From: Acidimicrobiia bacterium
GTDB lineage: Bacteria; Actinomycetota; Acidimicrobiia; UBA2766
Direction of reading: 5' to 3'
Length of the DNA: 48,987 nucleotides
NCBI GenBank assembly: GCA_020850945.1
Contig: JADZDR010000058.1
Span: forward strand, 1 to 48,987
Shown: piece by piece, positions 2,972 to 46,370 of the stretch
Layout of the letters: each line of letters opens with the position of its first letter
How positions within the stretch are numbered: position 1 is the stretch's first letter
Translations under genes and position numbers: made by a program
The notes under the pieces: generated by a model
Seen by the model: the letters and a program-made list of their open reading frames with translations, nothing else
Database searches by the model: none
Told to the model about the DNA's origin: nothing

Positions 2972-3082
2972 ATGAACCCGACACGGATCGAGAGGCCAAG
3001 AGTGACAGGCCGGCTCTCAGGGTCTTCAGGGTCTTCAGGGTCTTCAGGATCTTCAGGGTCTTCAGGAAGGAAGGGGCCGTGA
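2972..3082 (+). CDS. Short leader ORF (36 aa, Gly-Ser-Ser repeats) overlapping the ftsZ start
   Basis: ATG 2972 is preceded by a strong ribosome-binding site, GGAAGGG at 2957-2963, with 8-base spacing. The peptide begins [15 protein letters not shown], continues as five Gly-Ser-Ser units ([10 protein letters not shown]...) and ends GRKGP. Its TGA (3080-3082) overlaps the ftsZ GTG (3079-3081) in a GTGA junction typical of translational coupling. The Gly-Ser-Ser stretch is the direct reading of a five-copy 9-base tandem repeat, so copy-number change would alter peptide length without shifting frame. I do not recognise the peptide. It may be a coupling leader, a small protein, or a chance ORF. 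The good SD, stop position and overlap favour real translation, but no homologue is known to me. Confidence 0.5.
3021..3065 (+). repeat. Five tandem 9-base units (GGTCTTCAG) just upstream of ftsZ
   Basis: Units at 3021, 3030, 3039, 3048 and 3057. Four are GGTCTTCAG and the fourth is GATCTTCAG. The array ends 13 bases before the ftsZ GTG and abuts its SD (GGAAGGAAGGGG, 3065-3076). The 9-base unit keeps every reading frame open: it reads Gly-Ser-Ser in the leader ORF and Arg-Val-Phe in the ftsZ frame. It is a candidate slippage-prone tract next to an essential division gene. Confidence 0.9.
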
Positions 3083-6353: not shown

Positions 6354-6617
6354 GTGGGCATCCGGTCTGTGATCTGCGGGATCTTGCTCGTCTATATGGT
6401 CGTGCTCCTCCTCACGGCGGTCCTCTCGTGGTTCCCCCTCACATACGACTCGCCGGTTCACAAGTTCAAGAAGGGGCTCGACGCGTTGAGTGAGCCGATA
6501 CTCGCTCCCCTCCGGCGTACGATCCGACCCGTCCAGTTCGGCCAGGTCGGCCTCGACCTCTCGTTCCTCATCCTGTTTCTCGCGGTGTTCCTCGCCCGCC
6601 AGTTGCTCTGCGGTTGA
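6354..6617 (+). CDS. yggT: YggT family membrane protein
   Basis: 87-aa protein with two hydrophobic segments, roughly residues 4-27 and 66-86, and the family core LSWFPLTYDSPV, LSEPILAPLRRTIRP and GLDLSFLILF. YggT proteins sit beside sepF in many Gram-positives and actinobacteria. Their role is not firmly established; links to osmotic tolerance and division-site function have been proposed. GTG 6354 is used. The stop codon lies inside a perfect inverted repeat (6611-6634). Confidence 0.9.
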   Translation: MGIRSVICGILLVYMVVLLLTAVLSWFPLTYDSPVHKFKKGLDALSEPILAPLRRTIRPVQFGQVGLDLSFLILFLAVFLARQLLCG

Positions 6618-6634
6618 ACCGCCCGGTTCAACCG
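6611..6634. repeat. Perfect 11-bp inverted repeat across the yggT stop
   Basis: CGGTTGAACCG (6611-6621), CC, then CGGTTCAACCG (6624-6634). The palindrome covers the yggT stop and lies about 15 bases before a predicted divIVA -10. There is no T-tract, so it is not a classical intrinsic terminator. It could be an operator, an mRNA-stabilising or processing hairpin, or a U-less terminator. Confidence 0.7.
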
Positions 6635-6655
6635 CGTCGTGACTGCAGATACACT
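6628..6655 (+). promoter_or_regulatory. Candidate divIVA promoter (TTCAAC-16-TACACT)
   Basis: TTCAAC at 6628-6633 and TACACT at 6650-6655 have 16-base spacing. The -35 overlaps the right arm of the 6611-6634 palindrome, so a protein bound there could regulate divIVA apart from the upstream division genes. The -35 is a weak match; prediction only. Confidence 0.3.
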
Positions 6656-6721
6656 GGCCCGCGGTACCCGTTCGATGCCGAGGCTTGGGACGGGGTCGTG
6701 CAGCCGAGCCAGGAGGACTAC

Positions 6722-16057: not shown

Positions 16058-16070
16058 TCTCTCGTCGTGT

Positions 16071-16087
16071 CATGGCAGGATGCCATG
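16071..16087. promoter_or_regulatory. 7-bp inverted repeat upstream of phoD
   Basis: CATGGCA (16071-16077), GGA, TGCCATG (16081-16087), starting 14 bases before the phoD ATG in the phoD/dnaE divergent region. It could be an operator or a leader hairpin for phoD. No regulator can be assigned; it does not resemble a clear PHO box. Confidence 0.3.
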
Positions 16088-16170
16088 CGATGTGGGGGTG
16101 GATCCAGTCGGGGCGGGGGCCGAGTTCACGCACGTGGGCGGGGGTCCGCCGCGGCGTGCGAGGGTGCCGA

Positions 16171-16176
16171 TAAGGT
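16171..16176 (+). promoter_or_regulatory. Putative -10 element of a leaderless dnaE transcript
   Basis: TAAGGT lies 7 bases before the dnaE ATG (16184) and there is no clear SD. In actinobacteria, a TAnnnT box at this distance usually means that transcription starts at or next to the start codon. No good -35 is seen. Confidence 0.4.
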
Positions 16177-16183
16177 AAGCCGG

Positions 16184-19100: not shown

Positions 19101-19624
19101 CGACGATCGCCGAGGTGCTCGAGGCGAAGCCGGCAGGTGAGGTGAAATGGCTTGGTGGCGTCGTCGTGTCCGCCGACACGCGATTCACCAAGAACGGTGA
19201 CCGCATGATGATCCTCCAAGTCGAGGACTACACGGCATCCGCCGAGGTCATCGTGTTCGCGTCGACGCTGGCCAAGGCGCAGGTCAGGATCGAGGAGGAT
19301 CAGCCGTACCTGATCAAGTGCCGGATCGACACGCGAGACGAGGACGTGCGTCTCGCAGCGCTCGAGCTCGCCCGCCCCGACCTCTCGGCCGAGGCCAAGG
19401 CTGTGCGTGTGAGGATCAACTCGGCGCGGGTGACCGACGTGTGGGTCGCACGGGCGCGCCAGATCCTGTCGTCGCACCCGGGGAACTCACCTGTCTACCT
19501 CCACCTTCGCAACGCCGCTTCCGAGACCGTGGTCAGATTGCCCGATGACATCAAGGTGGAGGCGCGAAGTGGGCTCTTCGCCGAGCTCAAGGCCGAGCTC
19601 GGCTGCGAAGCCCTCCTCTCGTGA
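16184..19624 (+). CDS. dnaE: DNA polymerase III alpha subunit, DnaE type
   Basis: 1146-aa replicative polymerase. N-terminal PHP domain starts FVHLHVHSEFSMLDGA, with the metal-binding His residues retained. The polymerase core has GPGRGSAAGSAVAF, then SLPDIDVDFDD with two catalytic aspartates, and LKMDFLGLRNLSVIEDAL. Next come the tau/beta-interaction and HhH regions (YRPGPMGMG, ADYAFNKSHAACYGYIAYQT) and a C-terminal OB fold (EVKWLGGVVVSADTRFTKNG). Length fits DnaE1. ATG 16184 is required for the MADSFVHLHVHSEF start; the frame is open far upstream but is antisense to phoD. Its stop overlaps the next start (GTGA). Confidence 0.98.
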   Translation: MADSFVHLHVHSEFSMLDGASRLSELVTSVAMDGQPGVAVTDHGNMYGAFEFFKEARATGVKPIFGTEAYVATTGSRHDKAVSSGDNYHLTVLAETKTGYRNLMYIASMAFIEGFSYKPRVDLELLEERREGLIVTTGCLGSEVCQHLLADDYDGALKTASTYQDVFGRENYFVEVQDHGLPEDRIVVPQLVDIARAIDAPLLATNDSHYTDHDDAQAHDALLCVQTASQLADPDRFKFKTDQFWVKSAEEMRHLFRDLPEACDNTLLVCERASVELDSGLDLLPDFPVPEGYTHASWLRERVFEGARRRWGNELGADVVQRIEYELGIIEEMGFPAYFLIVADYIDWARRNGIRVGPGRGSAAGSAVAFSLEITQIDPLAQGLIFERFLNPGRKSLPDIDVDFDDRERGRVIDYVAEKYGRENVAQIVTFGRILAKQAVKDAARVLGYPYKMGDDITKLMPPPEFGRPPDLAQSLEKSKDLAELVATDPDVSRVYELARDLEGLVRQEGVHAAAVVMSRDPLLEHVPLAVTKNEARDVITQFEMAGCEEIGLLKMDFLGLRNLSVIEDALRLIERRGGSCDIDHVPLDDAATFDLLCRADTIGVFQLEGAPMRALIRQLQPTDFDDVVALVSLYRPGPMGMGMHTEYAERKNGRRPVTYPHADLEEALAGTYGVICYQEQVMEVARTIAGYSLPEADDFRKAMGKKKREIVARHEEKFVNGAIDRGYGEELGHELFETIRPFADYAFNKSHAACYGYIAYQTAYLKANYPAEYMSALLTSVRDDKDKPAVYLAETRDMGIKVLPPDVNRSDTDFSVVEDGVISYGLSAVRNVGRGVVESILAERDENGPFADFFDFARRVDAQCLNKRTVESLVLGGAFDAMHHSRKGLVEVHEAVIDLTLEKRRREDAGQFSLFDAVPAGVGAVTVELPPIREDEFDRTTKLRFEKEMLGLYVSDHPLRGLERALRASVEATIAEVLEAKPAGEVKWLGGVVVSADTRFTKNGDRMMILQVEDYTASAEVIVFASTLAKAQVRIEEDQPYLIKCRIDTRDEDVRLAALELARPDLSAEAKAVRVRINSARVTDVWVARARQILSSHPGNSPVYLHLRNAASETVVRLPDDIKVEARSGLFAELKAELGCEALLS

Positions 19625-35018: not shown

Positions 35019-35450
35019 ATGAGGTTGATAGCCGGATCGGACGAGGACACCGCGCTCGCGAGGGAGGTCGTGGCGGACCTGCGCCGGCGTGGCCACGAGG
35101 TCGTCGTCGTCGGCCCGGTCGCCGGTGAGGTGGCGGAGTGGGCCGAGGTCGGACGGCGTGTGGGGGAGGCGGTGGCGGAAGGCTCCGCCGACGCGGGCGT
35201 GTGCATGTGCTGGACGGGCACGGGTGTGTCGATTGCGGCGAACCGTGTTCGCGGCGTGCGCGCGGCCCTCTGCGCGGACGCCGAGACCGCGCGGGGTGCG
35301 CGTCGCTGGAACGACGCCAACGTCCTCGTGCTCAGCAACCGGTCGACGAGTTTCCCCGTCGCCTCGGAGATGCTCGACGCCTGGTTCGGGACGCAGGCAG
35401 ACGAGTCCGAGCGCCACAACATCGCCCGCCTCGACCCACCTCACGCCTGA
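35019..35450 (+). CDS. RpiB/LacA-LacB family sugar-phosphate isomerase
   Basis: 143-aa protein with family layout: MRLIAGSDEDTALAREVVA, HEVVVVGP, then the active-site loop GVCMCWTGTGVSIAANRVRG and RWNDANVLVLSNR. The catalytic cysteine position is kept but the usual CGTG is CWTG, as in a subgroup of RpiB-like enzymes. It may be ribose-5-phosphate isomerase B or act on another sugar phosphate. ATG 35019; divergent from nfeD by 48 bases. Confidence 0.85.
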   Translation: MRLIAGSDEDTALAREVVADLRRRGHEVVVVGPVAGEVAEWAEVGRRVGEAVAEGSADAGVCMCWTGTGVSIAANRVRGVRAALCADAETARGARRWNDANVLVLSNRSTSFPVASEMLDAWFGTQADESERHNIARLDPPHA

Positions 35451-35535
35451 ACCGCAGCGGCGAGCGACGCGAGCGAAGACTGTTCCGGCCGAAGCCGTCT
35501 AGAGTTCCGCACGGCATGAACACGAGGAGGAACGC

Positions 35536-35835
35536 GTGTCGACTTTCGTGATGCTCTCGACCCTGGGTCCGGACGGGATGGCCACGCTCGTGTCCAACCC
35601 GGACCGCATCAAGGCCGTCAACGAGGAGGTCGAGGCGATGGGGGCCCGCGTCATCTCCCAGTACGCACTCCTCGGCGACTACGACTTCATCACCGTCCTC
35701 GAAGCACCGGACGAGAAGACGATGGCCAAGGTCGCCGTTGCCCTCGGCGCGCGGGGAACGCTCAAGACACGGACCCTGACAGCGCTACCCGTGGACGAGT
35801 TCATCGAGACCGTGCGCCACCAGATCGAGATCTGA
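35536..35835 (+). CDS. GYD-domain protein
   Basis: 99-aa single-domain protein. TFVMLSTLGPDGMATL, VEAMGARVISQYALLGDYDF and FITVLEAPDEKTMAKVAVAL match the GYD family (ferredoxin-like alpha/beta fold), here with GDYD. No activity is established. GTG 35536 has AGGAGG 6 bases upstream. TAGAGT at 35500-35505 may be the -10 of its promoter. Confidence 0.85.
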   Translation: MSTFVMLSTLGPDGMATLVSNPDRIKAVNEEVEAMGARVISQYALLGDYDFITVLEAPDEKTMAKVAVALGARGTLKTRTLTALPVDEFIETVRHQIEI

Positions 35836-35846
35836 CGGCGACCGTC

Positions 35847-36053
35847 TCAGCCCGCCCACCACATGCCACCCTTGCGCTCGCGGCGGACCTCCTCACGTGG
35901 GAACTCGCGAGGCAGCACCATGCCGTCGGAGAGGCGGCGCACCCTGTAGGCGACGACCGCCTCGCCCTCGCCGATCGTCTCCTCGACGACGAAACCCGAG
36001 GCCCAGGCGTGGTCGAACTGGCTGCGTACCTCGACCTTCGTTCCCGCCTTCAC
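35847..36053 (-). CDS. Small SH3/Tudor-like hypothetical protein
   Basis: 68 aa from GTG 36053 with GGGAGAAGG upstream. KVEVRSQFDHAWASGFVVEE and YRVRRLSDGMVLPREFPREE suggest a small beta barrel, similar in pattern to Tudor/SH3-like RNA or protein binding domains. No family name is certain. Divergent from the glycosyltransferase gene, and its promoter region borders the metal box at 36111. Confidence 0.7.
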   Translation of the reverse strand: MKAGTKVEVRSQFDHAWASGFVVEETIGEGEAVVAYRVRRLSDGMVLPREFPREEVRRERKGGMWWAG

Positions 36054-36110
36054 AGCCTTCTCCCTCTTGCCGTGCGGCGGAGGATACTAAGCGGCTCTCC
36101 CCAAACAGAG

Positions 36111-36124
36111 TTAGGTTGCCCTAA
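36111..36124. promoter_or_regulatory. DtxR/IdeR-like metal box 1 (TTAGGTTGCCCTAA)
   Basis: Matches TTAGGnnnnCCTAA exactly. The classic 19-bp DtxR/IdeR box can be read as two such 14-bp palindromes offset by 5 bp. Here it overlaps the predicted -35 (TTGCCC) of the glycosyltransferase promoter, a position suited to repression when metal is plentiful. The regulator gene is not in the window. Confidence 0.55.
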
Positions 36125-36145
36125 AGCTGACTAGAAGGGTACCTT
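36116..36145 (+). promoter_or_regulatory. Predicted promoter (TTGCCC-18-TACCTT), leaderless
   Basis: TTGCCC at 36116-36121 and TACCTT at 36140-36145, 18-base spacing. The -10 ends 5 bases before GTG 36151, so translation may begin at the transcript 5' end. The -35 lies in metal box 1. Confidence 0.45.
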
Positions 36146-36150
36146 GCAGC

Positions 36151-38262
36151 GTGGCCCCGATGTCCACCCCACATGCAAGGCGACCCGGACGTCGCGTCTG
36201 GTACCTCGTGTTCCTCGTCCTCGCCGCCGCCAACATCGCCGCCGTGCCTGTGTGGGGCGCCACGAACCGGCTCACGGGCGACGAGCCGCACTACCTCATG
36301 ACGGCGGAATCGATCCTCTCGGACGGGGATCTCGATCTCGCCGACGAGTACGCGACCCGCGCGCACGCCCCCTACCACCACGAAGCGCTCCGTCCCCAGG
36401 AGGTGCCGCGGCCGGACGGGGCGCGTCTCAGCCCACACGGACCGGGCCTCGCGCTCGTCCTCCTGCCCGGCTACGCCGTCGGTGGCTGGGTGGGGGCGCG
36501 AGTCGAGCTCGCGCTCGTCGCGGCTGCCGTGCTCACGGGAGCCGGATACCTCGCCGCCCGCTTCGTGCGCCGTCCCGCCTGGGTGGCACCGGCGGCCACA
36601 CTGGCAGCCGGCCTGTCGGTGCCGCTCTGGGTGTACAGCACGCAGGTCTATCCCGAGATGCCCGCAGCGGCGATCCTCGTCGGTGCCGCTCTCGTCTGGA
36701 CAGGTGGATCGGACCGGCGCCGGCCCGAGATCGCCGCGGTCGGGCTGGGACTCATGGTGGGGGTCCTCCTGCTCCTCGGCCTCAAGTACGCGCCCGTGGC
36801 CGTCACCGTGGCTGCGGTCTCGGCGTGGCGTCTCCGCCGGAACCGGCGGGCACTCGCTCTTCTCGTAGGCGTCGGAGGCATCGCCTGTCTCGGCCAGGCC
36901 GCCTTCAACGTGGCGACCTACGGGGGCATCTCCCCCTATTCCACGAATGTCGTCTACGCCGGCAGATCGAACGCCTTCCTCGTCGCCGACAACGCGGGCG
37001 GCCTTGCCCGCACCTACAGGCTGCACGGCCTCGTGCTCGACCGGCACTTCGGGATCGGCCGGTATGCACCCGTCTGGTTCGCGGCCCTCGCGGCCGTACC
37101 CGTCATGCTCGTGCGCCGGGACACGCGGGCGGCGTGGACCCCGCTCGCGGCTCTCGTTGCCGTGCAGTGGGCGACGGCGACCTGGCTTGCCCTCACGATG
37201 CGCGGCTACTGGTTCCCGGGTCGCCAGGTCGTGGCCATCCTGCCTCTCCTCGTGCCCGCCCTTGCCTTTGCCCTCGCCCGCGTGCCCGCTCTCGTCGCCG
37301 CGCTCGGTGCCGTCTCGGTCGGAGTCGGGGCTTGGATGGTTTACGCCCTGGACACGGCGCAGGTGGGTGCGGGACGGAATCCGTTCTGGCTGCCCCTGCC
37401 GGGATTCGTGCCGGCGGGAGCGGCATTCCCGGACTACCGCACGGTGACGGTCCCGACTGTCGTCCTGCCCGTGGCCTGGTGCGTGCTCTTCGTAGCTCTC
37501 GTCACCGTCCTCTACCGGCGTGCCCTGCCCGGTGTGGGCCGTCGCCCTGTGACCGCCGGTGATGACCTCGGCGGGATCCGGCTCCTCGTCGGCTTCCCGG
37601 CCCGGAACGAGGCCCCGACCGTCGCCGACCTGGTGCGCCGCGCCCGCGCGCTCGATACCCGTGTCGCCCACGTCGACGTCGTGGTCGTGGACGACGCGTC
37701 TGCGGACGAGACGGCATCCGAGGCGACCGCCGCCGGCGCGCGTGTCCTCCCGGTCGCAGACGGGAGGACGGGGCTCGGTGCCGGCGTGAGGACGATACTG
37801 GCGGAGGCGACGCGCACGGGATCCGACTGGGTGGCCTTCATGGATGCAGACGGTGAGTACGCGCCGGAGGACATACCAGGCATGATCGCGACTGCGCGGT
37901 CCGCCCGTCTCGACTACGTGACCGGGGACCGCCTTGCCCAGGGCCGACCTCTGCGCATGCCCGTGTGGCGGTGGCTCGGGAACCGGGCAGGATCGTTCGT
38001 GGTCTCGTGCCTGGCAGGCCTGCGCATCCGCGACAGCCAGTCCGGTATCCGGGTCCTGTCGGCGCGGGCGGCCCGACGGGCGGAGATCCCCCACGACTAC
38101 AACTACGCCCAGGTCCTCACACTCGCCCTCGCCCGGGTGGATTGCCGCATGGGCGAGGTCCCTGTCTCCTACACGCGACGCGCGCACGGGCGGACCTTCG
38201 TGCGGCTGCCTGTGTATCTGTGGAGGGTGGTGCCCGCCATGTGGGAGGTGATGACGCCTTGA
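36151..38262 (+). CDS. Membrane glycosyltransferase (GT-C-like) fused to GT2 polyprenyl-phosphate glycosyltransferase
   Basis: 703-aa protein. Residues 1 to about 475 form a polytopic GT-C-like region: a TM near residues 15-35, then LTGDEPHYLMTAESIL, the acidic loop typical of ArnT/PMT-type enzymes that take sugar from a polyprenyl phosphate, and about 10 further TMs. Residues about 480-690 are a cytoplasmic GT2 domain like DPM1: LVGFPARNEAPTVADLV, VVVVDDASADETASEA, FMDADGEYAPEDIPGM with the DxD, and RIRDSQSGIRVLSAR. One protein may thus both make the lipid-linked sugar and use it. GTG 36151 looks leaderless; ATG 36160 is an alternative. The stop overlaps the gtrA start (TTGA). Confidence 0.82.
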   Translation: MAPMSTPHARRPGRRVWYLVFLVLAAANIAAVPVWGATNRLTGDEPHYLMTAESILSDGDLDLADEYATRAHAPYHHEALRPQEVPRPDGARLSPHGPGLALVLLPGYAVGGWVGARVELALVAAAVLTGAGYLAARFVRRPAWVAPAATLAAGLSVPLWVYSTQVYPEMPAAAILVGAALVWTGGSDRRRPEIAAVGLGLMVGVLLLLGLKYAPVAVTVAAVSAWRLRRNRRALALLVGVGGIACLGQAAFNVATYGGISPYSTNVVYAGRSNAFLVADNAGGLARTYRLHGLVLDRHFGIGRYAPVWFAALAAVPVMLVRRDTRAAWTPLAALVAVQWATATWLALTMRGYWFPGRQVVAILPLLVPALAFALARVPALVAALGAVSVGVGAWMVYALDTAQVGAGRNPFWLPLPGFVPAGAAFPDYRTVTVPTVVLPVAWCVLFVALVTVLYRRALPGVGRRPVTAGDDLGGIRLLVGFPARNEAPTVADLVRRARALDTRVAHVDVVVVDDASADETASEATAAGARVLPVADGRTGLGAGVRTILAEATRTGSDWVAFMDADGEYAPEDIPGMIATARSARLDYVTGDRLAQGRPLRMPVWRWLGNRAGSFVVSCLAGLRIRDSQSGIRVLSARAARRAEIPHDYNYAQVLTLALARVDCRMGEVPVSYTRRAHGRTFVRLPVYLWRVVPAMWEVMTP

Positions 38263-38654
38263 GAGTCGGCGAGCTCGGACGATTCGGTGCTGCGGGTCTT
38301 GTCGCGACTGTCGTCGACGTGGCCGCCTTCTACGCACTCGTCGAGGCGGGTGTCCCGGCCCTCGTCGCGAATCCCGTCTCGATGGCCGTGCGCCTCGGTG
38401 TCGCGTTCTGGGTCACGCGCGCCTGGGTGTTCCGGGACCGAGATGCGCGGGGGGCGGGTGTGGAGCTCCCGCTCTTCCTGCTCGTCGCGACAGCGAACGT
38501 CCTCGTCGTCGAGGCGGTGCTCGGCGGGGCACACCTCCTGGCGGGCGGTGAGCCGGCCAGCCTCGTGGCGACAGGACTCAAGGTGGGGGCCGTCGTTCTC
38601 ACCTTCTTCGCGCGTTACGCCGTCTCGCGACGCTGGGTGTTCAGGGCGAACTGA
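38259..38654 (+). CDS. GtrA-like membrane protein
   Basis: 131-aa, four-TM protein: GRFGAAGLVATVVDVAAFYA, NPVSMAVRLGVAFWVTRAWVF, LLVATANVLVVEAVLG, and FARYAVSRRWVF at the end. GtrA proteins are proposed to flip polyprenyl-phosphate sugars. TTG 38259 overlaps the upstream stop (TTGA) and has GGAGG about 11 bases upstream. With the fused glycosyltransferase it completes a make-flip-transfer set. The 3' end overlaps the converging epimerase gene by 40 bases. Confidence 0.88.
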   Translation: MRVGELGRFGAAGLVATVVDVAAFYALVEAGVPALVANPVSMAVRLGVAFWVTRAWVFRDRDARGAGVELPLFLLVATANVLVVEAVLGGAHLLAGGEPASLVATGLKVGAVVLTFFARYAVSRRWVFRAN

Positions 38655-39589
38655 GCCGCGACCTGCCGGTCGAGGCCGTCGTCGAGAGAGACGCGTGCGG
38701 ACCAGCCGAGCTCACGTGCGGCCCGTGTCACGTCGGCATGCGTGCCCGGCGGATCGCCGGCCGCCGGCTCTTCGTGCACGACGTGGAGACGCCGCCCCGT
38801 CATCTGCTCGAGGCGTCGCAGGACATCGATGAGGCGCGTCGGCTGACCGTGGCCGAGGTTGTAGACGCCCCCTATCCGGCCGCGTGTCGCCGCGGCCAGG
38901 GTGCCGGCCACGGCATCGTCGACGAACGTGAAGTCGCGCCGCTGCCGCCCGGAGCCGAACACGCGCACCGGCGCCCCGCGGTGGATGGCGTCGACGAAGC
39001 GGGCGATGGCCATGTCGGGTCGTTGACCGGGGCCGTAGACGGTGAAGTAGCGGACGACGACTGTGTCGAGGTCGCCGCGGGTCGCCGCGTGGCGCACGAG
39101 GAGCTCACCGCCGAGCTTCGTGCGGCCGTAGGGAGAGACGGGGCACGTGCGGGTGGCCTCGGACATGAGTCCCGGCGCGTTGCCGTACACGGATGAGGAT
39201 GATGCGTAGACGAGGCGACGGGCGCCTGCCCGGCGCGCGGCGGCTGTGACGGTCCGTGTGATGGCGACATTGCTCTCGAGGTAACCGGGGCGGAGCTCCC
39301 CCCAGCTCGGGCGCACGCCGGGCAGGGCTGCGAGATGCACGACGACGGAGCCGCGGGGGATGAGACCGGCGAGGTCGTCCGTACCGACACGCCGCAAGTC
39401 GAGCTCCGTGAAGCGGGCTCCCCGGTTCGAGAGCTCCGCAACCCTCGCTCGTTGCACAACCCGGAGGTTCGGTCCCGTGCAGGCATCGACTGCCAGCACG
39501 CGGTGACCGGCCCGGAGCAGCGCCGCCGTGAGCCGCGAGCCCACGAAGCCCGCGGCCCCGGTCACGACGAACGTCCCGTCCGCCGTCAC
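38615..39589 (-). CDS. NAD-dependent epimerase/dehydratase (extended SDR)
   Basis: 324-aa nucleotide-sugar enzyme. FVVTGAAGFVGSRLTAALL is the NAD-binding motif, VVHLAALPGVRPSW follows, YASSSSVYG precedes the catalytic SPYGRTKLGGE (YxxxK), and VVRYFTVYGPGQRPDMAI is the family substrate segment. Probably UDP-glucose or UDP-glucuronate 4-epimerase-like. GTG 39589 overlaps the stop of the cupredoxin lipoprotein gene (GTGA), so it shares that gene's metal-box promoter. It overlaps gtrA tail-to-tail. Confidence 0.9.
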   Translation of the reverse strand: MTADGTFVVTGAAGFVGSRLTAALLRAGHRVLAVDACTGPNLRVVQRARVAELSNRGARFTELDLRRVGTDDLAGLIPRGSVVVHLAALPGVRPSWGELRPGYLESNVAITRTVTAAARRAGARRLVYASSSSVYGNAPGLMSEATRTCPVSPYGRTKLGGELLVRHAATRGDLDTVVVRYFTVYGPGQRPDMAIARFVDAIHRGAPVRVFGSGRQRRDFTFVDDAVAGTLAAATRGRIGGVYNLGHGQPTRLIDVLRRLEQMTGRRLHVVHEEPAAGDPPGTHADVTRAARELGWSARVSLDDGLDRQVAAQFALNTQRRETA

Positions 39590-40092
39590 TGCACCTCGAT
39601 CTCCATCTTCATTCCTTCGGCGAAGTGGTCCTCATGCTCTCCGTTCGCCTCTTCCTCGACGATGAAGCAGGCGAGTTGATAGGTGCCCGGGTGGAGCTCG
39701 AGGGCGAGTGGCTTCATGGCGCCGGGGCCGATGTTCACGACCTCGCCGAAGGCCCCCTCCTCGTCGGTCGCCCCGGCCTTCGTGACCGCGAGCTCGTGCA
39801 CCTCGCTGCCTTCGTTCTTGACCTCGAAGTAGACCTTGGGACCCTTCACGACTACGGGCTCGGCCGCGATGGACCACTCCTTCACAGTCACCTGCACGAT
39901 CCCGTCCGCGTCTCCTGCGGTGAACGACGGAGCGATGTCTCCTGTCTCGCCGGATGCCGTTGCGCTGCCGCTCGCCGAGCCGGATCCGTCTGTGATCTCC
40001 GTGACCGCGGGCTGTTCTTCCCCGCCACAGGCGGAGAAGAGGAGAACGCCCGCGAGGGCAGCCGTGCCGAGGAGTCGTAGGGGCCGTCTCAT
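39586..40092 (-). CDS. Cupredoxin-like lipoprotein
   Basis: 168-aa exported lipoprotein. Signal peptide LLGTAALAGVLLFSAC ends in a lipobox with Cys about 22. A Ser/Gly/Thr linker follows, then a cupredoxin-type domain (VTVKEWSIAAEPVVVKGPKV, EVHELAVTKAG, YQLACFIVEEEANGE, HFAEGMKMEIEV). His (VHEL), Cys (LACF), His (DHF) and Met (EGM) are in type-1 copper-site order, but with a long Cys-His loop. Related domains occur in EfeO-like iron proteins and small periplasmic cupredoxins. ATG 40092 has GGAAGG 6 bases upstream. Its promoter carries metal box 2, tying it to iron or metal supply. Confidence 0.8.
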   Translation of the reverse strand: MRRPLRLLGTAALAGVLLFSACGGEEQPAVTEITDGSGSASGSATASGETGDIAPSFTAGDADGIVQVTVKEWSIAAEPVVVKGPKVYFEVKNEGSEVHELAVTKAGATDEEGAFGEVVNIGPGAMKPLALELHPGTYQLACFIVEEEANGEHEDHFAEGMKMEIEVQ

Positions 40093-40150: not shown

Positions 40151-40179
40151 AGGTTAGGGTACCCTAAAATACCAGTCAA
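40151..40179 (-). promoter_or_regulatory. Predicted promoter (TTGACT-17-TAACCT) of the cupredoxin-epimerase operon
   Basis: On the minus strand, TTGACT is at 40179-40174 and TAACCT at 40156-40151, 17 bases apart. Transcription would start near 40144, about 52 nt before the ATG. Metal box 2 fills most of the spacer and the start of the -10. Confidence 0.55.
40154..40167. promoter_or_regulatory. DtxR/IdeR-like metal box 2 (TTAGGGTACCCTAA)
   Basis: Perfect 14-bp palindrome, the best of the three boxes. It overlaps the -10 and the spacer of the promoter at 40151-40179, so a bound repressor would block polymerase. Assignment to a DtxR-family regulator is by sequence similarity only. Confidence 0.62.
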
Positions 40180-40198: not shown

Positions 40199-41566
40199 TC
40201 AATCCTCCACGGTGTTCGACTCCCATGCACGGCAGGCCTCGGCCCAGCGTTCGTGGTCGAACCCGTGCGGACCGGCACAGGCGGCTGCCGCGTAGCCCAT
40301 CGCCAGGGCATGGTGCGAGTTGTCGTGCACGAAGAGGCCCTGGCGGCCGAGTGTCCGCACGCGGTGCAGCCTCCCCGCCCACGCAAGCAGGTCACGGCGC
40401 CGCGCGAGCGTGGCGGGTGTGTAGACGGGGTACACGTCGGTGACGCGGCGTACCGTGGTCTCGACCGGATCCCCCGGGACCGGCAGTGCGAGGTCGACGA
40501 GCTCTGCGAGCGCCCGTGAGGTGACGACCGCGTCACGCGCCTTCCAGAGCGGCTCGTGCGGAGATGCGGGGATCTCGACGCAGAGGACGGTGCGGCCGCG
40601 GGGCACATCACTCCCGGAGTAGAGCTTCGGTTCGGACACGCGGCTCGTCACGAACGCGTCGGAGGCGACGTAGTGGGCATCCCACTCCGAGAACGTGCCG
40701 ACGTCGAACGCGAGGTACACGAGGAGCATGCCGCGTGCGGGCAGTGCCGCTTCGGCCGGGCCGGCCGGAGCGGTCGTGATCTCCCGCAGCGTGGAGAGCG
40801 GCAGGGTCGAAAGGAGGAGATCGCCTTCGACGGAGTCGTTCCCGTAGGCAGCACAGACCCCCGTCGCTGTGTCGGTGACGGCCGAGATCCGGGACGAGAA
40901 GCGGATGTCGGCACCCGCGGCGGCGGCGTCGTCGCAGAGCACCTCGCTGATGCGTCCGAAACCACCGCGGGGGTATGCGAAGTGGCTCGGCCCCGCGAAC
41001 ATTCCACGCGCAGCGCGTGCTGCGACTGCGGCGAGGGACGTGGCCGACACACGCCGCCGCGCCTGCTCGCCGTCCAACGTGCTCGGTTCCGTGCCCCAGA
41101 GCTTGCGGGCATACGGAAAGTAGAACTCCTCGCAGAGCGTGGGGCCGAAGCGCTGCCGGAGGACGTCGGCGTAGGAGGTCGCGCCAGGGTGTGGAGGCCG
41201 GAGCGGGTTGGTGAGCAGATCTCGCGCGAATGCCGCTGAGGTGCGCAAGGGCAGGGTGCGGAGCATCGACCCCGGTCGGAGCGGATACGCGATCCACCGG
41301 TCCCGGAGGCGGATGCGGCCGTGACGCGGGCGCCGTACTAGGTCGGGTCCGAGGAGCCGGCGCAGGTCCCCCATCACCCGCGTGTCGCACGTGGGATGCA
41401 GGCGATGGCTGCCGTAGTCCACCCGCATGCCTGCGAAATCGAAGCTCGCCGCGAGTCCTCCCACCCGGTCGGTGGCCTCGAGGAGTACGACGTCGTGACC
41501 TCGCATCGCGAGGCAGCGGGCCGCGGCGACGCCGGCCGGCCCGGCACCGGCGACGATCACGCGCAC
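40199..41566 (-). CDS. NAD(P)/FAD-dependent amine-oxidase-like oxidoreductase (protoporphyrinogen oxidase/UDP-galactopyranose mutase type)
   Basis: 455-aa flavoprotein. RVIVAGAGPAGVAAARCLA and LLEATDRVGGLAASFDFAG are the ADP-binding and GG motifs; VDYGSHRLHPTCDTRVMGDL is the next family block; FPYARKLWGTEPSTLDGEQA lies midway; FVHDNSHHALAMGYAAA closes the FAD site. The layout matches flavoproteins often found in polysaccharide or lipid-sugar clusters, and also protoporphyrinogen/phytoene-type oxidases; substrate undecided. GTG 41566. It ends 31 bases before metal box 2 but is read away from it. Confidence 0.8.
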   Translation of the reverse strand: MRVIVAGAGPAGVAAARCLAMRGHDVVLLEATDRVGGLAASFDFAGMRVDYGSHRLHPTCDTRVMGDLRRLLGPDLVRRPRHGRIRLRDRWIAYPLRPGSMLRTLPLRTSAAFARDLLTNPLRPPHPGATSYADVLRQRFGPTLCEEFYFPYARKLWGTEPSTLDGEQARRRVSATSLAAVAARAARGMFAGPSHFAYPRGGFGRISEVLCDDAAAAGADIRFSSRISAVTDTATGVCAAYGNDSVEGDLLLSTLPLSTLREITTAPAGPAEAALPARGMLLVYLAFDVGTFSEWDAHYVASDAFVTSRVSEPKLYSGSDVPRGRTVLCVEIPASPHEPLWKARDAVVTSRALAELVDLALPVPGDPVETTVRRVTDVYPVYTPATLARRRDLLAWAGRLHRVRTLGRQGLFVHDNSHHALAMGYAAAACAGPHGFDHERWAEACRAWESNTVED

Positions 41567-41628: not shown

Positions 41629-42327
41629 ATGCCTGCAGCCCTGTCCCGGCGCACACGTCCCGGCCGCCACGTCGAGGCCGAGCTCACCGACCTCGGTTAC
41701 ATCGGGATCGTCGGTGTCGACGAGGTGGGTCGCGGGGCGTGGGCAGGGCCGGTCAGTGCGGGCGTCGCCCTCTGGACACCTCAGGACCGCACGCAGGGGG
41801 TCAGGGACTCCAAGCTCCTCCCCCCCGAGGCGAGGGCTGCGGTTGCGACCCGCCTTGCCGCCCGCGTACCGCACGGGGTCGGCCACGCCTGGCCGGCGGA
41901 GATCGACCAGCTCGGTATGACATCCGCTCTGCGCCTCGCCGTGATGCGGGCACTTGCCGCGCTCGAACGGGACCACGGAGCGGTCCCGGACGCCGCGGTG
42001 ATGGACGGCAGCTACGACTTCCTCGCCGGCGTTTGCCCGGCACGCTGCCTGCCCAAGGCGGATCTGCGCTGCCGGTCGGTGGCGACGGCGAGTGTCCTCG
42101 CCAAGGTGGTGCGGGATCGCATGATGGTCGAGCTCGCCGCGTCCCATCCCGCATACGACTTCGCATCGAACAAGGGGTACCCGAGCCCGCAGCACCGGCA
42201 CGCGCTGGCCTTGCACGGCCCGACGGAGATCCACCGGAGGTCGTGGGCGCCGATGCGTGCTCTCCTCGGCCGGGGCGAGTACCCGCGGGGGGCGCTCGTG
42301 GACGATCGGCAGCCCTCGCTCTTCTGA
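41629..42327 (+). CDS. rnhB: Ribonuclease HII
   Basis: 232-aa endonuclease removing RNA from RNA-DNA hybrids and misincorporated ribonucleotides. Active-site motif GVDEVGRGAWAGPVSAG supplies Asp and Glu; DSKLLPPEAR, VATASVLAKVVRDRMM and FASNKGYPSPQH are conserved type 2 RNase H segments, with a further catalytic Asp in VMDGSYDFL. ATG 41629 has no SD; TACCCT at 41614-41619 may be the -10 of a near-leaderless mRNA. Divergent from the FAD enzyme by 62 bases. Confidence 0.95.
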   Translation: MPAALSRRTRPGRHVEAELTDLGYIGIVGVDEVGRGAWAGPVSAGVALWTPQDRTQGVRDSKLLPPEARAAVATRLAARVPHGVGHAWPAEIDQLGMTSALRLAVMRALAALERDHGAVPDAAVMDGSYDFLAGVCPARCLPKADLRCRSVATASVLAKVVRDRMMVELAASHPAYDFASNKGYPSPQHRHALALHGPTEIHRRSWAPMRALLGRGEYPRGALVDDRQPSLF

Positions 42328-42564: not shown

Positions 42565-43647
42565 CTAGCCCTCACGCGCGAACACGTCTTCCGGATCCAC
42601 CTCGAACTCGACGCTGACGCGTGCGCCGGGGGTGATCGTGCGGTCGACTCCGAGACGGGCGCGCAGGACGGGGGTTGACCCGTCGTCGGACACAGCGCCG
42701 GCGCGGATGCTCACCACCTCGTCGTGCCCGTAGAACTCGCGGTCGACGACGACCAGGTCGCTCCCCTCGTCGTGGGCCACGCGCACGGCTTCGGGCCGTA
42801 GGGCGACGATGACGTCTCCCTCCGCCACCTGGCCGCGCAGGTGTGTGACGCCGAACGGGGTCTTCACGACCGTGTCCTCGACGACACCTTCGACAAGGGT
42901 TGCCTCGGCGATGAAAGACGCCACGAACGGATCGACGGGCTTCTCGTACAGGTTCTCCGGCGTGCCGACCTGGACGACGCGGCCCTCCCGCATGACAGCC
43001 ACTCGATCCGCGATCGAGAGCGCCTCGTCCTGCGAGTGCGTGACAAAGATCGCCGTCGCCTCGGCTGCACGCAGGATCTGCTGCACGTCAGCGCGCACCC
43101 GCTGACGCAGCGTGGAGTCGAGGTTCGAGAACGGTTCGTCGAGGAGGATCACGTCCGGGTCGGGCGCGAGAGCGCGGGCGAGGGCGACTCGCTGCTGCTG
43201 GCCTCCGGAGAGCTCCCGCGGACGTCGCCGTTCGAGACCGGTGAGGCCGACGAGCTCAGCGAGTGCCCCGACGCGTTCATCACGCGCGCGCCGCTCGAGC
43301 CCGAATCCGATGTTGCCCGCCACGTCGAGGTGCGGGAAGAGTGCGTAGTCCTGGAACACCATGCCGACCCGGCGCTTCTCGGGGGGGACATGGACCTGTG
43401 CCGTCTCGACGGTCCGCCCGGCAAGGGCGATGTGGCCCGTGTCGACCCTCTCGAAACCCGCGACGAGACGCAACGTGGTTGTCTTGCCGCAGCCGCTCGG
43501 GCCGAGCAGGGCGAGGATCTCGCCGGCCTTCACGGCGAGTGTGATGTCGTCGACGGCGGCGTGAAGGGACGCGTGGGCGGTGGAGGAGCCGCGGGGGAAC
43601 CGCTTCGTCACGCTCTCCACCTCGACCTGCAGCACGTCATCTCGCAC
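42565..43647 (-). CDS. fbpC: Fe3+ ABC transporter ATP-binding protein (FbpC-like)
   Basis: 360-aa ATPase of a type I importer. Walker [18 protein letters not shown]-loop [11 protein letters not shown], signature [16 protein letters not shown], Walker [13 protein letters not shown], and H-loop [10 protein letters not shown]. The C-terminal TOBE-like domain ([15 protein letters not shown]) fits the FbpC/PotA/CysA group. Start overlaps the permease gene by 11 bases. Powers import of Fe3+ by the two genes upstream. Confidence 0.92.
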
Positions 43648-45274
43648 GGTGCCACTCCGGAATCGCCACCACCGCCATGGGCAGGGATGCGACGAGGATC
43701 AGGACGAGCCCGGCGATTCCCGCCTTCGTGTAGAAGCCGTCGACCGCCGGTTCCCATACGCGGATCGCGAGCGTGTCGAAGCCGATCGGCCGCAAGAGCA
43801 GCGTCACCGGCAGTTCCTTCATGACGTTCAGGAACACGAGGGCGGCTCCGGCGACGAGCCCGCGCAGGAGGAGGGGCAGAGTTACCGTGAAGAGGGTCTT
43901 CGACCACGTGCGGCCGAGCCCGCGCGATGCCTCTTCGAGGTGCGGGTTCATCCGGCCGAGAGCCGCCTGGGTCGCACCCAGCGCCTGCGGGAGGAAATGG
44001 AGGCAGAGCGCCACCACGAGGACGTAGATCGTCTGGTACATGGCAGGCAGCCACGCGATCGTGACGGCGACGAAGGCGAGGGCGATGACGAGGCCGGGAA
44101 GACCGTGCGAAGCCCACGTGAGGTTCTCGAGGGTCGAGGCGAACCTGCCGGGGTGTCGCACGACGACGATCGCGACGGGAAGGACCGCGGCGACGGCGAG
44201 TACGGCCACGACGAGGGAGAGGCCGAGCGAGCTCGTGGTGGCACCGAGAAGCTCGGTGCCGAAGCCGGAGCCGAGCGGGTTGCCGCGGGCGAGGCCCGTG
44301 GCCGTCCACCAGAGGAGGACGAACGCCGTCACGCCGACGGATGCGAGCATGACGAGCGCGGCCGCTCCCGCCGCGGGCCAGCGCCAGATCCCGATGCGGG
44401 TCGGGTCGCGGTGGCGGCGCGCGCCCGGGGCCGTGGACTCGAGGCGGAGAGGACCGCGGACGCGGATCTGGACGGCGACGACCACGAGCGTGATGAGGAC
44501 GAGGACGAGCGCGAGGGCGGCCGCGGTCGATCTGTCACCGAACTCGTACTGGTCGTAGATCACACGCGTGAACGTGTCGAAGCGCATGATCGACGGTACG
44601 CCGAAGTCCGAGAGCGTGTAGAGGCTCACCATGAGGGCTCCGGCTGTGATCGCGGGCTTCGCCTGGGGGAGGGCAACCCGGCGCCAGAGCCGGGTCGGGG
44701 ACACACCGAGGCTGCGGGCGGCATCTTCCACGGACGGGTCCTGGTCGCGGAGCGCGGCGAGCGTCGGGAGAAGGACGTAGGGGTAGGTGAACAGGCTGAG
44801 GGCGGCCCACGATCCCACGAAGCCGGTCAGGTCGGGGATGCGGTCGGCGCCGAGGAGGTCCCGCAGCATGCCCGTGGGGCCGAACGCGGACAGGAAGGCG
44901 AAGGCGCCGACGAAGGACGGGATGACGAGGGGGAGGTTGAGGCCGACGGTGAGGAACCCGCGGCCGGGCACGTCCGTGCGGGTGAGGACCAAGGCGAGCG
45001 GGATCGCGATGACGAGAGTCGTGGCGGTGACAGCAGCCGCGAGCCCCACGCTGCGCGCTGTCAGCTCGAGTGTGCGTGTGGACACCAGCGTCGACCACGC
45101 GTTCCTGTCGCCGGAGAGGGCGGTGATCGCGAGGACGGCTGCGGGGAGGACGGAGCCGACAGCCACGGCTGTGGCCGGGAGCCAGACGGCAACGGGGATG
45201 CGCGTCCCGGCCGGCAGGATCCGTCCCATGCCACGTCGCCGGCCGGGAAGGGCAATGGCGACCGGCTCCACCAT
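43637..45274 (-). CDS. fbpB: Fe3+ ABC transporter permease, two fused halves (FbpB-like)
   Basis: 545-aa inner-membrane permease with about 12 TMs in two homologous halves. Each half has an EAA loop that docks the ATPase: EDAARSLGVSPTRLWRRVAL in the first and EEASRGLGRTWSKTLFTVTL in the second. SLYTLSDFGVPSIMRFDTFT is typical of FbpB. ATG 45274 overlaps the stop of the binding-protein gene in a TGATG junction. The double-length form is the usual one for FbpB. Confidence 0.93.
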   Translation of the reverse strand: MVEPVAIALPGRRRGMGRILPAGTRIPVAVWLPATAVAVGSVLPAAVLAITALSGDRNAWSTLVSTRTLELTARSVGLAAAVTATTLVIAIPLALVLTRTDVPGRGFLTVGLNLPLVIPSFVGAFAFLSAFGPTGMLRDLLGADRIPDLTGFVGSWAALSLFTYPYVLLPTLAALRDQDPSVEDAARSLGVSPTRLWRRVALPQAKPAITAGALMVSLYTLSDFGVPSIMRFDTFTRVIYDQYEFGDRSTAAALALVLVLITLVVVAVQIRVRGPLRLESTAPGARRHRDPTRIGIWRWPAAGAAALVMLASVGVTAFVLLWWTATGLARGNPLGSGFGTELLGATTSSLGLSLVVAVLAVAAVLPVAIVVVRHPGRFASTLENLTWASHGLPGLVIALAFVAVTIAWLPAMYQTIYVLVVALCLHFLPQALGATQAALGRMNPHLEEASRGLGRTWSKTLFTVTLPLLLRGLVAGAALVFLNVMKELPVTLLLRPIGFDTLAIRVWEPAVDGFYTKAGIAGLVLILVASLPMAVVAIPEWHRAR

Positions 45275-46299
45275 CAGAGCAGCCCGACGCTCTCGAGGAG
45301 GGCGACCGTGTCGGGCAGTTCGGCACCGAGCGCGGAGAGGTCCGGCTGTTCGCCGGTCACGTCCGCCAGGGGTGGGCTGTCCTCCGGGGGCGAGATCCCG
45401 GAGACGAGGGCATACTCGCCTGTCTCCTCGACGAAGTACTCCTGCGACGCGTCCGACAGGAGGAACTCCACGAAGCGCAGGGCGTCCTCCGAGGCCTTGC
45501 CCTCGGCGACCACGCCGACTCCCGACGCGTTGACGAGGGCTCCCGGATCCCCCTTGGTGAGGAAGTGGTTCTCGACGGGGACCTCACCCTGCTCGCGTCG
45601 CACCGTGTGGAGGTAATAGTTGTTGACGAGGCCGAGCTCGACCTCGTTGCGGGCGACCGCCTCGACGATCGTGAGATTGTTGGGATAGGACTGGACGTCG
45701 TTGGCGACCATGCCCTCGAGCCATTGCCGTGTCGCCTCCTCGCCCTCCTCCAGGGTCATCGCTGATACGAACGCCTGGAACGAGGCGTTGCGCGGTGCGA
45801 TGGCGACCTTGCCCTGCCAGCGAGGTGCCGTGAGGTCGAACACGCTCGAGGGAACCTCACCCGCGGGCACGGAATCCGTGTTGAACGCGACGACGCGGGC
45901 CCGTCCCGACGTGCCCACCCAGCCGCCGTCGTCCGCGCGGAACTCCGCCGGCACCCTGTCGAGGGCCGTGTCGGGTAGGGCGGTGAGCATACCGGCGGCG
46001 TCGACGATGCCGAGGGTACCGGCATCCTGAGAAAAGAAGACCTCGGCCTGCGTCCGGTCACCCTCCTCGACGAGGGCGTTCGCGAGAGCGGTCGAGTCCC
46101 CGTACCTGACCTGGATCCTTATCCCGGTCTCGGTGTGGAAACGCTCGAGCAGTGGTCCGACGAGCTCCCGGTTGCGGCCCGAGTACACGACGAGCGTGTC
46201 GGTGGACCCGCCGCACGCCGCGATTGCCGTCCCGACGAGGACGAGGCAGACCAGGGTGGCCAGCCGCGTGCGCCCCTGTCCGTGCGGCCGCTCATGCAT
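45274..46299 (-). CDS. fbpA: Fe3+ ABC transporter substrate-binding lipoprotein (FbpA/FutA-like)
   Basis: 341-aa lipoprotein. Signal peptide LATLVCLVLVGTAIAAC ends in a lipobox Cys. TLVVYSGRNRELVGPLLERF is the first domain strand-loop of Fe3+ binding proteins; VQSYPNNLTIVEAVARNEVE is the hinge region; LGLVNNYYLHTVRREQG carries the Tyr-Tyr pair used to bind Fe3+. ATG 46299 has GGGAG about 9 bases upstream. The promoter holds metal box 3, consistent with iron-starvation induction. Confidence 0.93.
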   Translation of the reverse strand: MHERPHGQGRTRLATLVCLVLVGTAIAACGGSTDTLVVYSGRNRELVGPLLERFHTETGIRIQVRYGDSTALANALVEEGDRTQAEVFFSQDAGTLGIVDAAGMLTALPDTALDRVPAEFRADDGGWVGTSGRARVVAFNTDSVPAGEVPSSVFDLTAPRWQGKVAIAPRNASFQAFVSAMTLEEGEEATRQWLEGMVANDVQSYPNNLTIVEAVARNEVELGLVNNYYLHTVRREQGEVPVENHFLTKGDPGALVNASGVGVVAEGKASEDALRFVEFLLSDASQEYFVEETGEYALVSGISPPEDSPPLADVTGEQPDLSALGAELPDTVALLESVGLL

Positions 46300-46339: not shown

Positions 46340-46370
46340 ATATTAGGGCACCCTAACCCTAGCTTGCCAA
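46340..46370 (-). promoter_or_regulatory. Predicted fbp operon promoter (TTGGCA-19-TAATAT)
   Basis: On the minus strand, TTGGCA at 46370-46365 and TAATAT at 46345-46340. The 19-base spacing is long, but the -10 is a near-consensus match. The -10 starts inside the end of metal box 3. Confidence 0.45.
46343..46356. promoter_or_regulatory. DtxR/IdeR-like metal box 3 (TTAGGGCACCCTAA)
   Basis: Thirteen-base-perfect palindrome of the TTAGGnnnnCCTAA type followed directly by CCCTAG, which extends it toward the 19-bp DtxR/IdeR box. Overlaps the fbp promoter. Because it precedes an Fe3+ importer, this site anchors the interpretation of boxes 1 and 2. Confidence 0.65.

Follow-up and report, generated by a model that had tools for sequence, protein, structure and literature searches.

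A putative iron-regulated glycosylation system for stalked lipoproteins in Acidimicrobiia and other actinobacteria

This study concerns two adjacent genes in a 48,987-nucleotide stretch of an Acidimicrobiia bacterium genome (contig JADZDR010000058.1 of assembly GCA_020850945.1; hereafter the window), one encoding a membrane glycosyltransferase of the GT-C type fused to a GT2 sugar synthase and the other a small GtrA protein, which lie directly behind a short metal-type box. The same box precedes two further transcription units in the window, those of a cupredoxin lipoprotein and of an FbpABC transporter, and across actinobacterial genomes the GT-C enzyme co-occurs with one lipoprotein N-terminal module, a lipid-anchored cysteine followed by a low-complexity stalk. 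From these comparisons of sequences and predicted folds, we consider it probable, with considerable room for doubt, that the genes encode an iron-repressed O-glycosylation system dedicated to the stalk of iron-gathering lipoproteins, in which the gene pair would be the glycosylation arm of an iron-starvation regulon.

The box and the genes that it precedes

The box and promoter features discussed in this section are as follows.

36111..36124, + strand: metal-type box TTAGGTTGCCCTAA, upstream of the glycosyltransferase operon, identical in the congener (genome G001, locus L064)
36116..36145, + strand: candidate promoter TTGCCC-18-TACCTT, overlapping the box, its spacing kept in L064
36134..36147, + strand: possible weak second half-box GAAGGGTACCTTGC, 23 bases 3' of the first box, differing at 5 of 10 fixed positions
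40154..40167, - strand: box TTAGGGTACCCTAA, covering the spacer and -10 of the candidate promoter TTGACT-17-TAACCT before the cupredoxin lipoprotein gene
46343..46356, - strand: box TTAGGGTGCCCTAA, running into the candidate -10 TAATAT of fbpA

The box before the glycosyltransferase gene is an inverted repeat of the form TTAGG-N4-CCTAA. The original prediction had claimed such a box from the sequence of the window, and it is borne out: up to three mismatches being allowed, TTAGGTTGCCCTAA has six matches in the window, compared to an expected 0.31; they fall at four places, as two places match on both strands. The coordinates given there for the two genes (36151-38262 and 38259-38654) were also right. 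In the whole 3.9 Mb genome (G000), the pattern TTAGGNNNNCCTAA is found at four exact places, three of them in the window within 10.2 kb. These three precede the GT-C/GT2 and GtrA genes, the gene for the cupredoxin lipoprotein (with an overlapping epimerase gene), and fbpA-fbpB-fbpC. When one mismatch was allowed there were six places in the genome, compared to 25 for the same pattern reversed. The genome of the only congener searched (G001) has exactly three places, one before the orthologue of each of these units, and the number stays at three when one mismatch is allowed, compared to 28 for the reversed control pattern. At the congener's glycosyltransferase promoter the 14-base box is identical, as are its 15-base distance to TACCTT and the placement of the GTG start, and the flanks differ. 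In a genome of the genus SSF4 (G003), the start of the orthologue has TTAGGGCACCCTAT, in which nine of ten fixed box positions are kept; one other exact site was found elsewhere in that genome.

The original prediction had further placed a -35 element inside the box and suggested a leaderless mRNA. The first point held, as TTGCCC (36116-36121) is within the box, with TACCTT (36140-36145) following after a spacer of 18 bases. The GTG start of the glycosyltransferase gene, at 36151, is just past TACCTT, and with a transcription start 6-7 bases beyond that element the mRNA would be leaderless. Both elements are poor matches to the -35 and -10 consensus, and a consensus scan of 35400-36300 for sigma-70 promoters and terminators called neither. 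We regard the promoter and the leaderless start as plausible, based on their position and on their conservation in one congener. The half-box at 36134..36147 is suggestive only. A clear tandem second box was sought and rejected, since at all three window sites the position 23 bases on has five mismatches in ten, a level that about 4% of positions reach by chance.

Relatives of the island were compared as a named collection of 80 loci (of 102 found), which includes loci from Mycobacterium hubeiense, Thermoactinospora rubra, Pseudonocardia bannensis, and Aquihabitans sp. G128, with cluster genes detected by tblastn at E up to 1e-4. The GT-C enzyme of actinobacteria, Acidimicrobiia included, often has a recurring set of neighbours, namely FbpABC, a repressor of the DtxR family, a GT2 of the DPM type, a flippase-like domain, an epimerase, and an oxidoreductase dependent on flavin adenine dinucleotide (FAD), and each gene of the window island turns up again among these loci: GT2 in 65 of the 80, an Fbp transporter gene in 64, the FAD oxidoreductase in 63, an LPG-synthase-TM domain in 49, a DtxR-family gene in 45, the epimerase in 44, an FEA1 lipoprotein in 26, and a cupredoxin lipoprotein in 21. 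One of this group of clusters, L082, is titled "Euryarchaeota archaeon isolate IN1222"; its cluster is acidimicrobial, with an arrangement close to those of L074 and L080, and the entry is probably mislabelled or mis-binned.

The box is strongly enriched in these 80 loci. There were 23 exact occurrences of TTAGGNNNNCCTAA, compared to an average of 0.5 for 29 permuted half-sites, and 94 with at most one mismatch, against a permuted mean of 18.4 and a largest value of 43. Only a spacer of four bases is enriched, as no other length from 0 to 11 yields more than one exact site. Of the 83 sites with at most one mismatch inside the cluster spans, 80 are outside the cluster-gene matches, which cover 74.4% of the span. 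Such sites were present in the spans of 46 loci, or 30 of 50 groups formed at 70% GT-C identity, and exact sites were present in 13 of these groups, compared to at most two for any other permutation. Where boxes are paired (loci L064-L143), they are 23 bp apart in 17 cases and at any other single distance in at most three. Cooperative dimers at paired sites are known for MntR (PMC11275975), a mode of binding that the 23-bp pairs would fit.

That the box is a chance match is extremely improbable. It is short and palindromic, and the fourth exact site of the genome (L022 46-59, at the end of contig C25), which we did not assign to the regulon, has a methyltransferase-like frame behind it whose ATG is 21 bases away. 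Against chance, the box is kept in a congener and a second genus, is scarce in the genome, and is enriched in the 80 loci.

Its role as operator of the whole island has several points against it. Conservation of the box in close relatives, whose absence the original prediction had named as grounds for refutation, turned out in favour of the idea in the congener and SSF4, but the box was not found in the genus UBA2766 (G002), where the cupredoxin, GT-C, GT2, and GtrA genes are in one row: no box with two or fewer mismatches was found in 10 kb around that operon, and the four exact sites elsewhere in that genome do not exceed the five of the reversed control. In addition, the cluster span is free of boxes (at most one mismatch) in 34 of the 80 loci, and the stretch examined lacks an Fbp gene in 16, several of the contigs being short. 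The gene counts above also include large families (GT2, FAD enzyme, epimerase, ATPase), for which single tblastn matches may be paralogues.

The glycosyltransferases, the lipoprotein stalk, and their co-occurrence

The enzymes and the lipoprotein of the island are listed below.

36151..38262, + strand: fusion protein of 703 amino acids with a GT-C membrane glycosyltransferase at about residues 1-460 and a polyprenyl-phosphate sugar synthase of the DPM1-like GT2 type at about residues 475-690, assigned from folds and PF00535
38259..38654, + strand: GtrA/DPMS transmembrane protein (PF04138, 63.2 bits), proposed flippase or GT2 partner
39586..40092, - strand: cupredoxin lipoprotein with type-1-copper-like ligands H99, C142, H156, and M161, proposed glycosylation substrate
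39943..39987, - strand: Ser/Gly/Ala/Thr stalk (residues 36-50 of the lipoprotein), proposed acceptor sites
38615..39589, - strand: epimerase/dehydratase of sugars dependent on nicotinamide adenine dinucleotide (PF01370, 180.6 bits), overlapping the lipoprotein gene
40199..41566, - strand: FAD-dependent amine-oxidase-like oxidoreductase, with a homologue in 63 of the 80 loci

The GT-C half was predicted by AlphaFold with a predicted template modelling score of 0.91, and among its nearest solved folds are ALG12 (Z 21.6), ArnT (Z 20.2), and Pmt4 (Z 19.4). The acidic motif D44-E45-P46, which we take to be in the first outer loop as in the GT-C family, is invariant in 30 of 30 sequences. Many GT-C enzymes matched this half with Z of about 12-22, and the substrate is not distinguishable by such a comparison. 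No Pfam family, PMT included, matched the GT-C half at E up to 1 in the window protein and one relative (another relative had one weak match to a domain of unknown function), noting that HMMER filters drop weak matches. The GT2 half matches PF00535 over residues 482-598 (60.7 bits) and the dolichol-phosphate mannose synthase 5mlz (E 5.7e-7); its matches to NCBIfam models were all under cut-off. In the window the GT2 is fused to the GT-C. GtrA matches were limited to three of the 80 loci, those of the window's family, and in other loci GtrA seems to be replaced by an LPG-synthase-TM domain, which the examples read show fused to GT2. A pathway from GT2 through a flippase to GT-C would be expected because of these folds and what is known of polyprenyl-phosphate glycosylation.

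The window lipoprotein has a lipobox with Cys22, then GGEEQPAVTEI, a short Ser/Gly/Ala/Thr stretch, and the cupredoxin domain. The domain was predicted with per-residue confidence (pLDDT) of mostly 94-98, and the first solved folds listed for it are auracyanin and EfeO. H99, C142, H156, and M161, a complete type 1 copper ligand set, are invariant in 19 of 19 cupredoxin lipoproteins, and copper binding is predicted. In relatives, the N-terminal module consists of a similar start, C-G-x-D-D-G-x-x-V-R-x-I with the lipobox cysteine in first place, and a Ser/Gly/Ala stalk of up to 98 residues, and it heads a cupredoxin, an unrelated FEA1 domain, or no domain at all. For example, the protein of locus L039 scores 541.9 bits as an FEA1-related lipoprotein of family NF038033; G000 has no FEA1-family match at E up to 0.001. 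Matches to the module pattern included spurious frames (e.g., L105, L117, and L122), and only CxDDGxxVR-like starts were used. Six lipoproteins have a signal peptide, a lipobox cysteine, and a Ser/Gly chain and nothing more, most of them in a GT-C cluster. Thermoactinospora rubra YIM 77501 and Acidimicrobiia bacterium EGI L10123 are among the strains with stalk-only lipoproteins.

L133 11180-11315: stalk-only lipoprotein of Thermoactinospora rubra, encoded between GT-C and FbpA, with 21 residues counted from the cysteine
L091 2309-2530: stalk-only lipoprotein
L092 2847-3035: stalk-only lipoprotein
L140 1840-2190: stalk-only lipoprotein
L142 5528-5710: stalk-only lipoprotein
L152 4475-4762: stalk-only lipoprotein (genome G386)

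The composition of the stalks appears to be maintained at the protein level. In 19 of the 21 stalks examined, from loci of 42 to 75% guanine plus cytosine, AGY as well as TCN codons specify serine, and because both codon types are used it seems that the serine residue has been kept rather than a DNA repeat.

The link between enzyme and stalk comes from presence and absence across genomes. The GT-C half was found in 26 of 395 genomes of the class, which are taken as one sample in the GT-C, FEA1, and module searches, the same handles being among those listed in each. Among the matches listed, a full module match was present in 21 of these 26 genomes compared to 3 of the 369 others (Fisher p 3e-27, uncorrected for kinship or for the choice of cut). 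In a sample of 346 genomes of the phylum, the module was matched in 14 of 22 GT-C genomes compared to 1 of 324 others (Fisher p 1.5e-18). For that sample, a genome was scored as GT-C-positive at E up to 1e-50, a threshold chosen after viewing the list and passed by 22 of the 38 genomes listed at 1e-20. A module match was counted if it extended at least to model position 32 with E no higher than 1e-6, as in 15 of the 22 genomes listed. In two GT-C genomes the module lipoprotein is 41-73 kb from the GT-C gene. A wider search covered 22 GT-C genomes picked from the 33 loci in which neither a cupredoxin nor an FEA1 domain had been detected, and 14 of the 22 have an FEA1-family match outside the GT-C stretch, 10 of them above cut-off. 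A control to the stalk-lipoprotein search, covering 76.8 kb of other loci, gave one match, L007, which is itself in the cluster of G041.

GT-C genomes without a listed full match were G002, G003, and G078, which have stalk lipoproteins with divergent starts, G039, which has none in the parts read, and G094. The GT-C match is weak or in pieces in G094 and G126, both of which are included in the 26. In G126 (L158) the GT-C frame is broken, there is no GT2 in the 20 kb examined, and the stalk is nearly gone, which may reflect sequencing error or decay. The three GT-C-negative class genomes with a module match comprise G153, with a true module, and G338 and G312, which have no Ser/Gly stalk on reading and were still counted.

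A number of these results weigh against a strict coupling of enzyme and stalk. The class count used only matches reaching model position 31 or beyond, a cut set after viewing the list, and the list ends near E 5.6e-6, such that more full matches are possible. At E up to 0.01, 303 of the 395 genomes match the module model somewhere, mostly, among the matches listed, in its signal-peptide part; because that part is unspecific, our counts rest on near-full-length matches. The model was partly built from genomes later scored positive, and the positives are to that extent circular, which is not true of the rarity of full matches in negatives. G153 has the module and FbpABC, and GT-C was not found there. 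In the phylum sample, the module went unmatched (E up to 1e-6) in 8 of the 22 genomes with GT-C. In the wider search, the other 8 of 22 genomes lacked an FEA1-family match, and the module search gave matches of signal-peptide length in five and nothing in three; they include four strain-named organisms, M. hubeiense, Aquihabitans G128, T. rubra (which has the short stalk peptide beside GT-C), and P. bannensis. Finally, the window's own stalk is short, at about 15-18 residues.

Two other explanations of the enzymes have to be considered here. The first, which we consider unlikely, is that GT-C, GT2, and GtrA build or decorate a wall polysaccharide or glycolipid, with iron starvation altering the envelope at large and the lipoprotein merely co-regulated. 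The folds near GT-C include the arabinosyltransferases AftB and EmbC as well as ArnT, enzymes with glycans or lipids as substrates; the epimerase and the FAD enzyme might contribute to a glycan of any kind; and there are eight GT-C genomes in which no full module lipoprotein was found. Against this, GT-C tracks one lipoprotein N-terminal module in the 395 class and 346 phylum genomes, and the module is common to unrelated domains and missing in two FEA1 proteins of GT-C-less genomes. Because GT-C follows the stalk across genomes, the general envelope glycan change suggested by the original prediction is less likely than a dedicated modification of the lipoprotein stalk.

The second, which we also think unlikely, is that the Ser/Gly stalk is an unmodified flexible spacer and that the glycosyltransferases are there for another reason. 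Low-complexity linkers are common behind lipoboxes, and the shortness of the window's stalk agrees with a spacer. A spacer would, however, have nothing to space in the six stalk-only lipoproteins, which are beside GT-C or elsewhere in a GT-C genome, although frame errors in repeats are possible in draft genomes. In addition, the FEA1 lipoproteins of two GT-C-less genomes (G198 and G253) have other, stalk-less linkers, the start of a third (G204) being unreadable. Overall, glycosylation of the stalk of the co-regulated lipoprotein by GT-C is the likely function, as judged from these comparisons.

The transporter, the regulator, and its metal

The third unit behind a box encodes the transporter.

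45274..46299, - strand: FbpA-like ferric-iron-binding lipoprotein, reading NNYY (closest to 7w3w)
43637..45274, - strand: FbpB-like permease (PF00528)
42565..43647, - strand: FbpC-like ATP-binding cassette ATPase (PF00005)

The best solved relative of FbpA is the ferric iron-binding protein 7w3w (E 3.1e-74), and the query segment LVNNYYLH contains the tyrosine pair that we take to be ferric-site residues. Matches to NCBIfam aminophosphonate-binding models were below cut-off, and by its closest solved relatives the protein is classed as a ferric-binding type. Presumably an RNase HII-like gene (41630-42327, + strand) splits the island between the FAD gene and fbpC. On the other side, the glycosyltransferase gene is preceded by a small, presumably isomerase-like gene and a gene with a GYD domain (window 35019-35835 and L003 20-788), in an order that is the same in SSF4, and upstream in the window are an ftsZ-like gene (2965-4236), a DivIVA-domain gene (6614-8113), and a DNA polymerase III alpha gene (15539-19624).

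The genomes G000-G003 each have one DtxR-family gene (PF02742). The nearest solved relative of the G000 protein is IdeR (123 bits, compared to 42 or less for MntR chains), and the G000 protein carries Asp10 and His102. We examined the promoter of this gene for a box and rejected it, as there was no site with two or fewer mismatches in the 3.2 kb of L034. In the numbering that we assume for metal site 2, the ligands of iron-sensing DtxR and IdeR are Met10, Cys102, Glu105, and His106. The repressors encoded within the clusters have a different set: Glu10 in 43 of 43 readable cases and Cys102 in none of 45, with Glu105 kept in 45 of 45 and His106 in 44 of 45. Their ancillary ligands are kept and the recognition helix has Ser37 or Thr37 where readable. 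This subgroup, represented in 45 loci of the range L064-L143, has Gly in place of Cys102, or else Asp, His, Ala, or Glu. A DtxR-family protein from L039 scores 141.7 bits against the NCBIfam DtxR model, below its cut-off of 290.

These residues bear on a further alternative, that the box is read by a DtxR/MntR-like repressor of the manganese type or for another metal, or by a Fur-family protein, and that the genes are not iron-responsive. The sensed metal could be manganese because the cluster repressors have Glu10 and no Cys102, unlike IdeR, and the window organism's protein also departs from that set. Further points against iron control by DtxR are that the only DtxR gene of G000 is on another contig with no box nearby and that a Fur-family gene is present in the same genome. 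We nevertheless find this alternative improbable: FbpA is ferric-type, the FEA1 domains of the clusters belong to a family inducible by low iron (PMC8098128), the TTAGG half-site fits DtxR, the G000 protein is nearest IdeR, and DtxR genes are within the cluster in 45 of 80 loci. We infer iron as the metal from the neighbouring genes and not from the regulator's ligands. On comparative grounds, iron-type control of this glycosyltransferase is highly probable. The iron link of the original prediction gained support from the boxes before the cupredoxin lipoprotein and FbpABC and from the frequency of DtxR-family genes in the loci; its extension to envelope-wide glycan change is the less likely reading.

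A proposed mechanism and its relation to known systems

We hypothesize that when iron is plentiful a metal-loaded DtxR-family repressor would occupy the TTAGG-N4-CCTAA palindromes over three promoters, those of GT-C/GT2 with GtrA, of the cupredoxin lipoprotein with the epimerase, and of FbpABC, and that when iron is short all three units would be produced. GT2 would then put a sugar on polyprenyl phosphate in the cytoplasm, GtrA (in relatives, the LPG-synthase-TM domain) would aid passage of the sugar carrier across the membrane, and GT-C, acting outside, would move the sugar to serines of the low-complexity stalk behind the lipid-anchored cysteine. The decorated stalk may keep an iron- or redox-active domain, EfeO-like cupredoxin here and FEA1 elsewhere, in the wall beside FbpABC, to which iron would be delivered. 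A more speculative version, which we consider doubtful, is that the glycosylated stalk itself collects iron. Iron-starved cells would then produce it as a lipid-anchored mini-mucin, the glycan of which would bind ferric iron and pass it to FbpABC. If true, this would be a form of siderophore-free iron harvesting, and the cupredoxin and FEA1 domains would be later additions.

The layout is similar to that of actinobacterial protein O-mannosylation, in which, according to a recent review, a GT2 loads polyprenyl phosphate and a GT-C enzyme modifies Ser/Thr of secreted proteins outside the cell, often in low-complexity linkers (PMC12757957). As in the PMT/GT39 systems, a GT2 is paired with a GT-C membrane enzyme, and the window GT-C fold matches Pmt4; unlike them, the window GT-C has no PMT profile match and is linked with a metal box and with a single lipoprotein module. 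The main text of that review, whose title calls actinobacterial protein mannosylation "enigmatic", does not contain the word "iron" (PMC12757957).

The regulatory side resembles the DtxR/IdeR regulons of Corynebacterium and Mycobacterium in its DtxR-family repressor, TTAGG half-sites, and iron-uptake targets; iron-uptake genes are among the targets of DtxR and IdeR. It differs in metal site 2 and in its operator, a TTAGG-N4-CCTAA palindrome of 14 bp that in relatives may come in pairs 23 bp apart. The full 19-bp DtxR box is TTAGGTTAGSCTAACCTAA. Compared by eye, 36111-36129 agrees with it at about 12 of 19 positions and has the inverted TTAGG half-sites but not the full box. A canonical 19-bp box was looked for in the window and is not present; looser forms occur in some relatives, with 22 stretches in the 80 loci coming within four mismatches of it, and TTAGG-N9-CCTAA occurred there in no exact copy and in 21 with one mismatch. 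For Corynebacterium glutamicum, one study gives an 18-bp form of the overlapping 18-19 bp box, TAGGTTAG(G/C)CTAACCTAA, and names a putative membrane protein, wzy, among the DtxR targets (PMC12327846). In the papers searched this is the nearest envelope link to iron control, a hint that also favours the wall polysaccharide or glycolipid explanation; "glycosyl" and "mannosyl" are absent from the main text of that paper (PMC12327846).

The proposed cargo domains also have known relatives. The window cupredoxin resembles the N-terminal domain of EfeO (NF041757, 39.1 bits; Foldseek 7wgu, E 1.8e-6) and differs in scoring far below the family cut-off of 270, in its length of only 168 residues, which presumably leaves out the second EfeO domain, and in its invariant H, C, H, and M. 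The FEA1-related lipoproteins of family NF038033, the alternative cargo in relatives, recall FEA1/phytotransferrin-related iron assimilation in algae. FEA1 is described as a low-iron periplasmic algal protein, N-glycosylated in Chlamydomonas and proposed to concentrate iron near transporters (PMC8098128), a role in keeping with the mechanism proposed here. The bacterial proteins differ in being lipoproteins on a Ser/Gly stalk that are linked to FbpABC and a dedicated GT-C, and G000 has the cupredoxin type. Judged by titles, which makes this a weak negative, no iron-regulated lipoprotein glycosylation system and no actinobacterial FEA1 lipoprotein is described in the open-licence papers searched.

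In a class with few cultured members, the locus brings together a metal-regulated enzyme set, one predicted acceptor module, and a physiological reason for the modification, namely iron shortage. It also places the FEA1-related lipoproteins in a functional setting, their algal relative being a low-iron protein for which no mechanism is known (PMC8098128). Finally, it raises a testable question, that of whether iron starvation may switch on the glycosylation of a named peptide.

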